DNA of 64,000 nt. Origin: Burkholderiales bacterium. Its GTDB lineage: Bacteria > Pseudomonadota > Gammaproteobacteria > Burkholderiales > SG8-41. This document shows, piece by piece, positions 16,044 to 59,971 of this stretch (the stretch's first letter is position 1; each line of letters opens with the position of its first letter). The notes below the pieces were generated by a model. The model saw only the letters and a list, made by a program, of their open reading frames with translations. It was not told the DNA's origin and did no database searches. Where the stretch lies: positions 62,001 to 126,000 of the forward strand of contig DATAJS010000015.1 in assembly GCA_036262035.1 (NCBI GenBank), in the 5' to 3' direction. A program made the position numbers and the translations under genes.

Positions 16044-16326
16044 TGGCGTGCAGACCGCGCAATTTCCGGACCGCAAGGCCCGCGGGTTGCGCGCGCGGGG
16101 GAGTCTTCGTCCGCCACCAAGCCAAGAAGCGCAAAACGTGCGCGCCGGCCGGATCGGGTCTGCGCGCATCCCATAACGACGATGCTTACGATGGAGAGCA
16201 CCGACTCAAATGGGCCGCAGTGCACGCGGCGCGGGTCGAAACGGCGCAAAGCCGGGACGGCGCACGCCTGTATCCCGATCACATTCCGTACCTACCAGCT
16301 CCACTTACCGAGTTAAAGCCCAAGCC

Positions 16327-22617
<6,291 letters not shown>

Positions 22618-25410: not shown

Positions 25411-25507
25411 AGTGACGGATAAGGCGGTGACGGGTTAAAGCGTCGCGGCGTTTTTCGTCACCGCTTTATCCGTCACCGTAGTATCCGTCACCGCCTTATC
25501 CGTCACT
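25411..25507. repeat. Inverted repeat of 15-bp GTGACGGATAAAGCG-type units, copy 1
   Basis: The left arm has about two GTGACGGATAAGGCG-type units and the right arm three inverted CGTCACCGCTTTATC-type units. The core includes GCGTCGCGGCGTTTTTCGTC. It separates the convergent DUF5985 and hemerythrin genes and may act as a terminator. A second copy is inside the Bug receptor gene at 58906-59038. Confidence 0.88.
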
Positions 25508-26680: not shown

Positions 26681-26880
26681 CGTCATTCCCGAACCGCGGT
26701 AGCGGGGCTGTCGGGGATCCATTTCTTGAAGGTCAAAATGGGTTCCCGCCTGCGCGGGAATGACGCTTCGGGTCGCCTTCGCGGGAATGACGCTCCGCAT
26801 CACCTGCGCAGGGATGACGCTTCGGGTCGCCTTCGCGGGAATGACGCTCCGCATCACCTGCGCGGGGATGACGCGCCTGC
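26681..26880. repeat. GTCATTCCCG palindromic repeat array with a 54-bp tandem duplication
   Basis: Starts CGTCATTCCCGAACCGCGG and runs through GGGATCCATTTC and GGTTCCCGCCTGCGCGGG. Two consecutive copies of a 54-bp unit follow (26760-26813 and 26814-26867), starting ATGACGCTTCGGGTCGCC and differing only near the end (GCAGGG against GCGGGG). A third partial unit follows. Confidence 0.88.
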
Positions 26881-30869: not shown

Positions 30870-30876
30870 CAGATCG

Positions 30877-31135
30877 TCATTCCCTCGAAGGTGGCGCGCG
30901 CCGCGTCATTCCCGCGAAGGTGACGCGCAACATCATTCCCGCGAAGGTGACGCGCAGCGTCATTCCCGCGAAGGCGGGAACCCATTCGACGCGCAGCGTC
31001 GTCCTGGCGAACGCCAGGATCCATTTTCGACGATGTTGAAAGTCAACATGGCTCCCGGATCGTGTCCGCTATCGCGGACAGGTCCGGGACGACGCGACTA
31101 CCTCGCGTCGGCTAGCGCGCGGTCGGGAATGACGA
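30877..31135. repeat. Block of GTCATTCCCG repeats plus a GTCCGGGACGACGCGAC-type repeat
   Basis: Four or more GTCATTCCCGCGAAGG units in tandem occupy 30877-30990. A second unit with ATGGCTCCCGGATCGTGTCC, CGCGGACAGGTCCGGGACGA and CGCGTCGGCTAGCGCGCGG lies at 31044-31135. The latter matches 43201-43290 in opposite orientation. Confidence 0.85.
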
Positions 31136-54966: not shown

Positions 54967-55141
54967 GAGGCGCGGTGCGCTTGCGCGCACCCTACGGAAA
55001 CCGGTAGTTCCGCGGAGGGTGCGTGGTAACGCACCGACACCGTTAAACCCTGCGGCGTTTTCGCCGTTAAGCTGGATAGGCCCGCTCTCATCTGGTGCGT
55101 CTGTTGACGCGCCGATGCCGCGAGGCATAGGATCGAACCGA
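54967..55141. repeat. GTGCGC hairpin repeats in the gap after the Lhr gene
   Basis: GCGGTGCGCTTGCGCGCACC and AGGGTGCGTGGTAACGCACC are two related hairpins (about 54969-54995 and 55016-55040). They probably end the Lhr transcript. The remainder to 55141 leads into the riboswitch and should contain the promoter. Confidence 0.65.
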
Positions 55142-55345
55142 ACGTGCAGGAGAGCACGGCTTTGCCGCCGTCGCCGAAGGCGAAATCTCCCATAACCGCT
55201 CAGGCCGCAGGTACTGCGCGTTCGACATAGCCGTCTGGAGAGAGGCGCCGATCGAACGATCGGCGCCCACCGAAGGGGCAAGGTGCTCCAGAGCACCGCA
55301 ATCTCTCAGGTACCAAGGACAGCGGGAGCGGCGACGGATCGGCGG
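55142..55345 (+). promoter_or_regulatory. Tandem glycine riboswitch
   Basis: Two aptamers. The first has GGAGAGCAC, GTCGCCGAAGGCGAAATCTC and CGCTCAGGCCGCAGG (about 55148-55213). The second has GGAGAGAGGCGCCGATCG, CACCGAAGGGGCAAGG and ATCTCTCAGGTACCAAGGAC (about 55236-55325). The GCCGAAGG core, the CTCTCAGG segment and the AGGACAG tail are diagnostic of the glycine class. About 45 nt later the ribosome site GAGAGG precedes ATG 55391. It controls the DadA-like gene directly, so glycine probably turns on amino-acid oxidation. Confidence 0.93.
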
Positions 55346-56852: not shown

Positions 56853-58898
56853 GTGACACAACACGAGGCCAACGTAGTGAAAGTCGTCACCAAGCTCCCG
56901 CACAAGTACACCGAAACCGAAGACTGCTGGATCCCGATGCCCGACGGGGTCAGGCTCGCCGCCAAGCTCTGGCTCCCGGACATCGCGCAAAAGAAGCGCG
57001 TCCCGACCATCATCGAGGTGATCCCGTATCGCAAGCGCGACATCTACGCCCCGCGCGACGCGATGCATCATCGTTACTTCGCGGGCCACGGCTACGCGAG
57101 CATGCGCATCGACATTCGCGGCTCGGGCGATTCCGACGGCGTCCAGGGCACGTTCGCGATCGGCGACGAGACCGGCGACACGGTCGAGGCGCTGAAGTGG
57201 ATCGCACAGCAGCCGTGGAGCGACGGCAACGTCGGCATGTTCGGCATCTCGTGGGGCGGCTTCCAGGGCATACAGGTCGCGGCGAAGAATCCGCCCGAGC
57301 TGAAGGCGGTCATCGCGCAATCGTTCTCTCCCGACCGCTATCGCTACAGCCAGGTGTTCCGCGGCGGCGCGATCCTCTTGCGCTCGATCCGCTGGTCGAG
57401 CCAGCTCTTCGGCTACAAGTCGCGTCCGCCCGATCCCGAGCTCGTGGGCGACCGCTGGCGCGAGATGTGGATGCAGCGCCTCGAAGCCGATGCGCCGCAG
57501 ATCGTCGCCGCGCTCAAGCACCAGACTTACGACGATTACTGGCGCGCGCGCGCGAGCGACTGGTCGAACATCAACGCCGCGGTGTACGCGGTGAGCGGCT
57601 GGGCCGACGGCTCGTATGTCGGCTCGGTGACCGAGGCGATGGCGAACCTCGACACGCCGCGCAAGGCGCTGATCGGGCCGTGGGGCCACCGTTACGCGCA
57701 CCTCGGCATGCCGGGTCCCGCGATCGGTTTCCTCCAGGAATCGCTGCGATGGTTCGACCGGCATCTGAAAGGCAAGGACACCGGTGTCGACAAGGACCCC
57801 GCGCTCATCGCATGGATGCCGCAGTCGGCGCCGGCCAAGAGCTTCTATCCCGAGTCGCCGGGGCGCTGGGTCGCGGAGCGGGAATGGCCGTCGCCGCGCA
57901 TCAAGCCCCAGCGCTTCCACATGAACAGCGGCGGCGCGCTCGGCGACAAGGCGAGCCGCGCGGGCACGGTTTCGAACCGCTCGCCGCAGACGCTCGGCCT
58001 CGCGGTCGGCGAATTGATGCCGTGGTTCCAGCACGGGCCGAGTCCCGAGCTTCCCGGCGATCAGCGGCCCGATGACGGCCAGTCGATCTGCTTCGATTCG
58101 GAGCCTCTCAAGAAGACCGTCGAGATCCTCGGCACGCCGAGCGCCGAGCTCGTGCTGTCGGTCGACAAGCCGGTCGCGTTCGCGTGCGTGCGCCTGTGCG
58201 ACGTCGCGCCCGACGGCGCGTCCACGCGCGTCTCGTACGGCATCCTGAACCTCGCGCACATCGGCGGCGCCGACAAGGTGAAGAAGCTCGAGCCGGGCCG
58301 CCAGTACAAGGTGAGCGTGCCGCTGATCGACTGCGCGTACTCCTTCGCGCCGGGCCATCGCATCCGCGTCGCGATCTCGACCACGTACTGGCCGCTGATC
58401 TGGCCGTCGCCCGAGCCGGTGACGCTCACGGTGCAGACCGGCAAGAGCGCGCTGTCGCTGCCGGTGCGCCCGCTGCGCAAAGGCGAAGCGTCGCCGACGT
58501 TCAAAAAGCCCGAGTCCGCACCGGGTTTCCCGCGCACCGTCCTCGCGCCGGGCGGACGCAATCGCGTGATCCGCACCGATCTCGGAAAAGGTGAGACCGT
58601 CGTCGAGATCACCGACTCGAGCGGACGCAACCGCTACGACGAGATCGACATGGTCGCCGAAGCGCGCTCGACCGAGCGCTACAGCGTGGTCGAGGACGAT
58701 CCGCTCAAAGCGACCGCGGAAGTGACGTGGACGTGGGAGTTCGAACGCAAGGACTGGAAGATCCGGACGGAGACCCGGACCCACGTCTCGTGCACCCGGC
58801 GCGAGTTCATCGTGCGCGCGCGCATCGAAGCCTACGAAGGCGAGGAGCGGGTTTTCGAGCGCGATTTCGAGGAGCGGGTCCGGAGGAATGGAAACTGA
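56853..58898 (+). CDS. CocE/NonD family hydrolase (X-Pro dipeptidyl-peptidase-like)
   Basis: A 681-residue serine hydrolase. The N-terminal alpha/beta-hydrolase domain contains the nucleophile S133 in FGISWGGFQG, the oxyanion strand IEVIPYRKRD and GPWGHRYAHLG with the catalytic His. The acid is probably Asp in GWADGSY. The C-terminal jelly-roll domain starts near FDSEPL and ends at FEERVRR, as in the CocE/NonD and PepX-C families. Such enzymes cleave esters or amides, for example cocaine or glutaryl antibiotics. The substrate is unknown. GTG 56853 is shown; GTG 56877 (MKVVTKLPHKY) has a better SD (GAGG). Its TGA overlaps the ATG of the next gene (ATG 58898). Confidence 0.88.
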   Translation: MTQHEANVVKVVTKLPHKYTETEDCWIPMPDGVRLAAKLWLPDIAQKKRVPTIIEVIPYRKRDIYAPRDAMHHRYFAGHGYASMRIDIRGSGDSDGVQGTFAIGDETGDTVEALKWIAQQPWSDGNVGMFGISWGGFQGIQVAAKNPPELKAVIAQSFSPDRYRYSQVFRGGAILLRSIRWSSQLFGYKSRPPDPELVGDRWREMWMQRLEADAPQIVAALKHQTYDDYWRARASDWSNINAAVYAVSGWADGSYVGSVTEAMANLDTPRKALIGPWGHRYAHLGMPGPAIGFLQESLRWFDRHLKGKDTGVDKDPALIAWMPQSAPAKSFYPESPGRWVAEREWPSPRIKPQRFHMNSGGALGDKASRAGTVSNRSPQTLGLAVGELMPWFQHGPSPELPGDQRPDDGQSICFDSEPLKKTVEILGTPSAELVLSVDKPVAFACVRLCDVAPDGASTRVSYGILNLAHIGGADKVKKLEPGRQYKVSVPLIDCAYSFAPGHRIRVAISTTYWPLIWPSPEPVTLTVQTGKSALSLPVRPLRKGEASPTFKKPESAPGFPRTVLAPGGRNRVIRTDLGKGETVVEITDSSGRNRYDEIDMVAEARSTERYSVVEDDPLKATAEVTWTWEFERKDWKIRTETRTHVSCTRREFIVRARIEAYEGEERVFERDFEERVRRNGN

Positions 58899-59971
58899 TG
58901 GAAGAAGTGACGGGTGAAACGGTGACGGATAAAGCGGTGACGGATAAAGCGGTGACGGATGAAGCGGTTACAGGCAGGGCTACGGGGTTGCAGCGGTTTT
59001 TCGTCACCGCACTACCCGTCACCGCCTTATCCGTCACTTTTTTCGTCGCCGCCTCGGCTTCGTGCCTCGCCGCAGACTATCCCCGCCGCCCCATCAGCCT
59101 CATCGTGCCTTTCCCGCCGGGCGCGGCGACCGACGCGTTCGCGCGCGTGGTCGCGAGGAAGATGGTCGACGTGCTCGGGCAGCAGATCGTGGTGATCAAT
59201 CGCGACGGTGCGTCGGGGATCATCGGCACCGATGCGGTCGCCCGCGCCGCGCCCGACGGCTACACGCTGGTGTGGGGCACGTCGTCGGGCCTTTCGATCC
59301 TGCCGGCGCTCAAGCAGAAGATGCCGTACGATCCGCAGCGCGACCTCGCGCCGATCAGCCTCGGCGCGAAGCTCGCGTACGTGCTCGTGGTCCATCCGTC
59401 GGTGCCCGCGTCCGGCGTGAAGCAGCTCATCGCGATCGCGAAAGCCCGGCCGGGCAAGCTCAACTTCGCCTCGGCGGGAACGGGCGGCGCGCCGCACATG
59501 GCCGGCGAGCTCTTCAAATCGATGGCGAAGATCGACATCGTCCACGTGCCGTACCGCGGCACCGCGCTCTTCGCCACCGACCTCGTCGCCGGGCAGGTCG
59601 ACCTCGCGTTCGCGAGCCCGGTGACCACGCTGCCGTTCACCGGCAACGGGCGCCTGAAGCCGCTCGCGGTCACCGTGAACCGCCGCATCGAGGTCTATCC
59701 GGACCTGCCGACGATGGCCGAAACGCTGCCCGGTTACGAGCTCACGCAGTGGTACGCGATGCTCGCGCCGGCGAAGACGCCGCCGGATATCGTCGCGACG
59801 CTCAACGGCGCGATGCGCAAGGCGCTCGACGACGCGGACGTGAAAAAGCGCATCACGAGCGAAGGCGGCCTCCCCTCGCCGACGACGCCCGAAGGCCTGG
59901 CGAGCTTCATCAAGGCCGAGACCGTGAAATACGAGAAGATCGTCGCGGCGGCGGGAATCAAGACGGAATGA
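58898..59971 (+). CDS. Bug/TctC-type substrate-binding protein E with repeat-derived N-terminus
   Basis: A 357-residue periplasmic binding protein. ATG 58898 overlaps the upstream TGA and has SD GGAGGA. Residues 1-48 or so are encoded by an inverted 15-bp repeat, read as VTDKAVTDKAVTDEA, then LQRFFVTALPVTALSVTFF, which forms most of the signal peptide before AASASCLAADYPRRP. A TTG at 58988 would give a shorter, more conventional signal peptide. The mature part has ISLIVPFPPGAATDAFARVVA, NRDGASGIIG, DGYTLVWG and VPYRGTALFATDLV. It is likely co-translated with the CocE-like hydrolase, whose product may be its ligand; that is inference. Confidence 0.88.
   Translation: MEEVTGETVTDKAVTDKAVTDEAVTGRATGLQRFFVTALPVTALSVTFFVAASASCLAADYPRRPISLIVPFPPGAATDAFARVVARKMVDVLGQQIVVINRDGASGIIGTDAVARAAPDGYTLVWGTSSGLSILPALKQKMPYDPQRDLAPISLGAKLAYVLVVHPSVPASGVKQLIAIAKARPGKLNFASAGTGGAPHMAGELFKSMAKIDIVHVPYRGTALFATDLVAGQVDLAFASPVTTLPFTGNGRLKPLAVTVNRRIEVYPDLPTMAETLPGYELTQWYAMLAPAKTPPDIVATLNGAMRKALDDADVKKRITSEGGLPSPTTPEGLASFIKAETVKYEKIVAAAGIKTE
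58906..59038. repeat. Inverted repeat of 15-bp GTGACGGATAAAGCG-type units, copy 2, inside a signal peptide
   Basis: The left arm has four 15-bp units starting AGTGACGGGTGAAACG. The right arm has three inverted units ending CGCCTTATCCGTCACT. The core GCAGCGGTTTTTCGTC matches copy 1 (25411-25507). Because the period is a multiple of three, both arms remain open in the receptor frame. Confidence 0.9.

Follow-up and report, generated by a model that had tools for sequence, protein, structure and literature searches.

In the window (the whole stretch of DNA that was analysed, 64,000 nucleotides), a gene encoding an S15-family hydrolase is followed by a gene encoding a Bug/TctC receptor, and an array of short repeats lies at the junction between them (Table 1). 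The hydrolase is intact up to its normal C-terminus, as revealed by end-to-end alignment with its orthologues, and its TGA stop codon overlaps the ATG at 58898 (TGATG). The open reading frame beginning at this ATG, whose N-terminal sequence is MEEVTGETVTDKAVTDKAVTDEAVTGRATGLQRFFVTALPVTALSVTFFVAASASCLAADYPRRP, matches the PF03401 profile along its full length (214.7 bits against a cut-off of 27, profile positions 2–273 of 274).

Table 1. Features of the hydrolase-Bug junction and of the second array in the window (window coordinates).
Feature	Position	Strand	Remarks
S15-family hydrolase gene	56853–58898	+	Start at 56853 or 56877; PF02129, E 5.7e-56; PF08530
GGAGGA, likely ribosome-binding site for ATG 58898	58882–58887	+	Within the last hydrolase codons
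Bug/TctC receptor gene	58898–59971	+	357 aa from ATG 58898; PF03401, E 2.4e-63
Alternative Bug starts	GTG 58907, 58922, 58937, 58952; TTG 58988	+	
Left arm, four in-register 15-bp units GTGACGGRTRARRCR	58907–58966	+	Read VTGET VTDKA VTDKA VTDEA
Loop	58967–59001	+	Minus-strand reading continues the core GTGACGAAAAACC shared by other two-armed copies
Right arm, inverted units	59002–59037	-	Plus-strand reading VTALP VTALS VT, the hydrophobic core; T-tract after it
Native signal-peptide remnant VAASASCLAAD	59045–59077	+	Directly before YPRRP; by comparison with 23 syntenic orthologues
Second copy of the element	25412–25506		Between two convergent genes, filling the gap save 13 and 9 nt

The sequence-only reading had described an inverted repeat of a 15-bp unit within the Bug gene, translated in frame as VTDKA units and then as a hydrophobic core. 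This was confirmed: bases 58907–59037 form an inverted array of the unit GTGACGGRTRARRCR, flanked by GAAGAA and TTTTTT, whose in-frame translation gives VTDKA units followed by FFVTALPVTALSVTFF. Eleven unit-pair matches were found in the 64-kb window, against 0.02 expected, and the RNA fold of the array at the Bug gene reached −76.3 kcal/mol (z −8.9 against shuffled sequence). The further claim that a period divisible by three keeps both arms open needs one correction: in the left arm a single frame of three is open, and the others run into the TGA of the unit or into a TAA/TGA seven bases on, whereas the right arm is open in all three frames and hydrophobic in the VTALS frame only. The second, intergenic copy was also found at its place between convergent genes; its two sides show complete complementarity over their outer 24 bases, and its folding gave a z of −11.5 against shuffled sequence. 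An Rfam search of the window returned nothing at the arrays, its sole match being a glycine riboswitch aptamer elsewhere (55137–55226, 54.2 bits).

Other repeated sequences were observed in the window. Positions 16210–22617 encode a 2135-aa sensor kinase with about 10 tandem HAMP-like repeats of 92 residues (276 bp), which are 83% alike at the DNA level. Tandem arrays of a 27-bp unit with GGGAATGACGC / CGTCATTCCCGCGAA lie at 26747–26874 and 30875–31025, and apparently represent another dispersed intergenic repeat.

The unit pair (22 bases, up to 3 mismatches) gave 277 matches in the 7.14-Mb genome, whereas its reversed control gave none at the same threshold. At up to 2 mismatches the pair was absent from 73 other family genomes, which include three from the same genus; the element is dispersed and not gene-born, as had been proposed. 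A 36-base array pattern and an exact 22-mer were absent from 84,980 species genomes (a set from which the home genome may have been left out) and the viral contigs contained no array match, and a phage or another species as origin of the element was rejected on this basis. A literature search with the first ten bases of the unit returned unrelated titles among the matches listed.

The census of the element covered 2.29 Mb of fetched sequence, partly picked for holding copies, and yielded 82 array loci, of which 42 were two-armed and about 40 one-armed, so that no hairpin is possible in the latter. The unselected part, contig C10 (1.24 Mb), contained 19 loci, and by extrapolation from this contig the genome holds about 110. 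The plus arm was on the left in 41 of the 42 two-armed copies. Because most of these have the polar core GTGACGGATAAAGCGGTGACGAAARGCG... in common, they look like copies of one element, consisting of inverted arrays of the GTGA-led 15-bp unit around the shared core and measuring mostly 80–155 bp. Positions 1–7 of the unit (GTGACGG) are nearly fixed. Across all array loci, the variation at positions 8, 10–13 and 15 is nearly confined to A and G (T and C in the right arm), and most unit variants can therefore still pair by G-U. Compensatory evolution between the outer arms was rejected, since the units matched no better than shuffled ones. As in MITE-like repeats, there are many dispersed copies of a short non-coding inverted repeat, and the orthologous junctions in congeners and family genomes are empty.

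Genes were called with a simple home-made codon-usage caller, and start positions are therefore approximate. The arms start at stop codons: 74 ends of longer genes lie at −12 to +30 nt from an array. Offsets of −4 and −11 are common, the stop being supplied by the TGA of the unit or by the TAA/TGA seven bases on, and the GTGA of the unit often provides the stop codon of the upstream gene. By automatic count, 20 of the 42 two-armed copies lie between convergent genes, against 14% of background gene pairs, although the window copy, overlapped by the Bug frame, is wrongly included in this count. In each of the other 19 the rest of the gap amounts to at most 30 nt, and 31% of background convergent gaps are that short (p 7e-9 in a cautious test with 18 of 19). 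One-armed arrays between codirectional genes run along the gene direction in 26 cases and against it in 7 (p 0.0013). At the orthologous junctions of the congeners the element was absent.

This distribution bears on the idea that the arrays are regulatory sequence kept by the host, either bidirectional terminators or REP-like stop-proximal modulators of translation, with the signal role as a side effect. The succession of A-tract, stem and T-tract, the hairpins (z −8.9 to −11.5) and the enrichment of two-armed copies between convergent genes and within 30 nt of stops would suit such a function; however, about half of the loci (the one-armed ones) can form no hairpin, congeners do without the element at the same junctions, and the outer arms show no compensatory matching. 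We regard such a regulatory role as rather unlikely.

In order to know what the element had replaced, the relatives were compared. Twenty-six orthologous hydrolase genes are present in the family, and in 23 of them a Bug gene comes next, usually within about 40 nt; the remaining three have no close Bug match or run off the contig end. The element is never present in the 23 syntenic Bug orthologues, which carry ordinary signals unrelated to that of the window gene, such as MMKGLKLVAVLLATACSFTGAHAQ followed by KFPERP or MSIKSNTYEDFRCPLLLSAAIAALIAAALLQSISAHAQ followed by TYPRRP. In the window gene, VAASASCLAAD alone looks native by comparison with the orthologues. Since the orthologues without the element have ordinary signals, the start codon, the n-region and most of the hydrophobic core have been replaced by it. 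The alignment with element-free homologues that the sequence-only reading had proposed thus exposed unrelated native signals, and the same N-terminus in orthologues, which it had named as evidence against capture, was found in none of the 23. Capture of a non-coding element into the signal region is well supported as a sequence history, both by the orthologues and by the dispersal of the repeat.

The captured region was compared, as a putative Sec signal peptide, with other Bug N-termini. Its best 12-residue window (mean Kyte-Doolittle 2.10) begins 20 residues before YPRRP. The 161 Bug N-termini of the genome have a mean of 2.25 (sd 0.31), which places the window gene at the 33rd percentile; hydrophobicity and position of its core are normal among them. 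The other two frames of the right arm have a hydrophobicity near zero. Between the element and the mature domain the sequence offers no further in-frame start. The most likely start is ATG 58898, with translation coupled to the end of the hydrolase and the GGAGGA ten bases upstream as ribosome site; the anti-SD energy of this site is −9.5 kcal/mol, stronger than at about 85% of called ATG starts. The hydrolase orthologues have no GGAGGA at the position equivalent to 58882, and their ribosome site, where seen, lies between the genes. From ATG 58898 the n-region comprises 33 residues with a net charge of −3, which is atypical of a Sec signal. The weaker start TTG 58988 would instead yield a compact 28-residue signal; a signal of canonical length requires this TTG, which lies in the loop of the hairpin. 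Expression may be lowered by the stable hairpin so close behind the start. We infer that the window Bug protein is exported by its captured N-terminus.

The starts of other genes have been rewritten by the same repeat. Twelve of 49 same-direction downstream genes continue the VTDKA frame with no intervening stop codon, and 7 of these 12, by reading of the sequences, have no other usable start. They are the window Bug gene, three more Bug genes (L126, L140 and L138, the last with a second repeat following), a glycosyltransferase gene (L154), a gene for a glyoxalase-like protein (L132) and the gene for FixH (L159), which has its own ATG upstream of the array. Empty congener junctions reveal the native starts of the glycosyltransferase and of the Bug gene L126; at L154 the GTGA plus in-frame units of the source genome occupy the exact place of an ATGA stop/start overlap in the congener. 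The predicted supply of a start codon or an n-region by the element is recurrent, and a hydrophobic core made from the 15-bp-unit element was seen in the window gene only. Bug genes are over-represented among the in-frame cases (6 of 11 against 4 of 38, p 0.0045, with L133, which has an evident native ATG, counted as not captured; p 0.012 when the window gene is left out). A preference for in-frame insertion was rejected, 12 of 49 being not above one third. In-frame joining at this rate is read as passive capture tolerated by signal peptides and, being no commoner than chance, is by itself no proof of selection.

A second dispersed repeat (CTCCCCC...GGGGGAGGGNTRGGGTGGGGGTGGG) was observed at L138, L150 and L219 and on contig C10 near 900.3 kb. 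Its in-frame translation, PSPSGGGLGWGWV, stands at the start of two Bug genes and of a sulfatase-modifying-factor-like gene, possibly also at the start of a short-chain dehydrogenase gene, and apparently forms part of the hydrophobic core.

A rival reading is that the insertion abolished export of the Bug protein, the frame being open only through the openness of the arms and the gene a recent remnant nearing loss. Such a gene could be dispensable, as the genome has hundreds of Bug paralogues (at least 71 shown, 616 candidates), and an in-frame rate not above chance would fit this reading. On the other hand, some 300 codons past the element are uninterrupted and match TctC along its full length, the only hydrophobic frame is the one in use and gives a core of normal strength and position, and a strong ribosome site stands ahead of the new start. 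We hold it improbable that the gene is such a remnant. As for an old, gene-born N-terminus from which the intergenic copy was derived, nothing was found in favour of it, and it is refuted by its absence from all orthologues and family genomes and by the presence of the same DNA between genes and at the starts of the unrelated FixH, glycosyltransferase and glyoxalase-like genes, so that we give it practically no credence.

The history that we consider probable is that a lineage-specific palindromic repeat was copied into the junction, that the Bug start was lost and that the right arm together with the native tail became a Sec signal. A non-coding palindromic repeat would have been copied into the hydrolase-Bug junction and the first 14–16 or so Bug codons lost, an order of copying and deletion that we infer. 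The remaining Bug frame would have stayed connected, since the right arm can be read through in every frame and the left arm in the frame GTG-ACG-GAT-AAA-GCG. Translation would then proceed from ATG 58898, coupled to the hydrolase stop, or alternatively from TTG 58988, and the right arm in its hydrophobic frame, together with the native VAASASCLA tail, would act as a Sec signal peptide. The same repeat gave start codons or n-regions to other genes as well, so that this would be a passive, recurrent rewriting of junctions, well tolerated by signal peptides. The case is built on sequence data from one genome, home-made gene calls, a partly targeted census and comparison between species.

Related arrays occur elsewhere in the family. 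At the convergent junction L149 (5180–5286), three related species have three array types: 15-bp units in the source genome, an inverted 7-bp GTGAATS array in G034 (L229/L233) and, in G033 (L231), a contig that ends inside an array of the 8-bp unit GTGAACGG. In a family-wide search the GTGAACGG arrays were abundant (165 matches in G033, 105 in G071, 74 in G068 and 40 in G014), and GTGAATS arrays were abundant in one genome (G050, 90 matches). Of the 8-bp arrays, many share 4 bases with a stop or follow it after a few bases, and others are a few bases away from a start codon, while the 7-bp arrays are further from genes; because of these positions, anchoring at stops is solid for the 15-bp family and partly true of the 8- and 7-bp arrays. 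The family may thus possess a class of junction-filling inverted GTGA-led arrays (15, 8 and 7 bp), often beginning at stops and holding overlapping stop/start codons, which would have repeatedly replaced stops, starts and signal N-termini and once supplied most of a working secretion signal; we propose this tentatively, with belief and doubt nearly balanced.

The element works like known palindromic repeats, but by means of variable inverted arrays. BrickBuilt of Porphyromonas gingivalis, a minisatellite inside a MITE with 23-bp units between short terminal inverted repeats, keeps at least 49 bp from genes (PMC4596501). It is likewise dispersed, species-specific and made of short tandem units, whereas in our element the inverted arms consist of the arrays, which abut genes or extend into them. 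REP sequences of the GTAG and CGTC types, single palindromes of 20–40 bp, lie close to stops, sometimes supply the stop codon and are common at convergent junctions (PMC3733652; PMC12306157). The element shares these habits, but it is not a single 20–40 bp palindrome with a terminal GTAG or CGTC tag; its 15-bp unit is non-palindromic and forms variable tandem arrays that are inverted between the arms. A RAYT gene bordered by the repeat, as expected for the GTAG type, was not found among three Y1 transposase genes: the 11-kb regions around two of them contain no arrays and the third lies more than 2 kb from the nearest one. A RAYT/Y1 transposase as mobilising partner was rejected on these grounds. 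Rickettsia palindromic elements (RPE, 105–146 bp) are found in frame inside many proteins of one lineage (PMC2229807). Ours is also a palindromic element read in frame within proteins of one lineage; by the published descriptions RPEs lie inside genes regardless of gene ends, whereas it lies at junctions and begins at stop codons.

The closest precedent for a repeat-made signal peptide is RU-2/YPAL, a dispersed palindromic element of Yersinia, 168 bp long and without tandem units, that forms part of the predicted signal peptide of YPO1552 (PMC2759123; review PMC2229807). In both cases the hydrophobic frame of a dispersed palindrome builds part of a signal peptide and the relatives of the protein have unrelated signals. 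Going by the descriptions, the present element differs in that its arms are variable arrays of a 15-bp unit and its carrier belongs to a standard receptor family; moreover, what was replaced can be seen in 23 syntenic orthologues, and the same repeat has hit further genes. Earlier repeat-derived signal peptides came from isolated, poorly characterised genes. With the replaced sequence readable in 23 relatives, a standard receptor family and more rewrites in one genome, the conversion of a repeat into a start or an export signal becomes directly testable, as does the question of why signal peptides absorb such insertions, and the other GTGA-led arrays in related genomes raise the question of how arrays spread and how their units change. 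Compared with RU-2/YPAL, what is new is that the replaced sequence is visible and that the starts of other genes have been rewritten.
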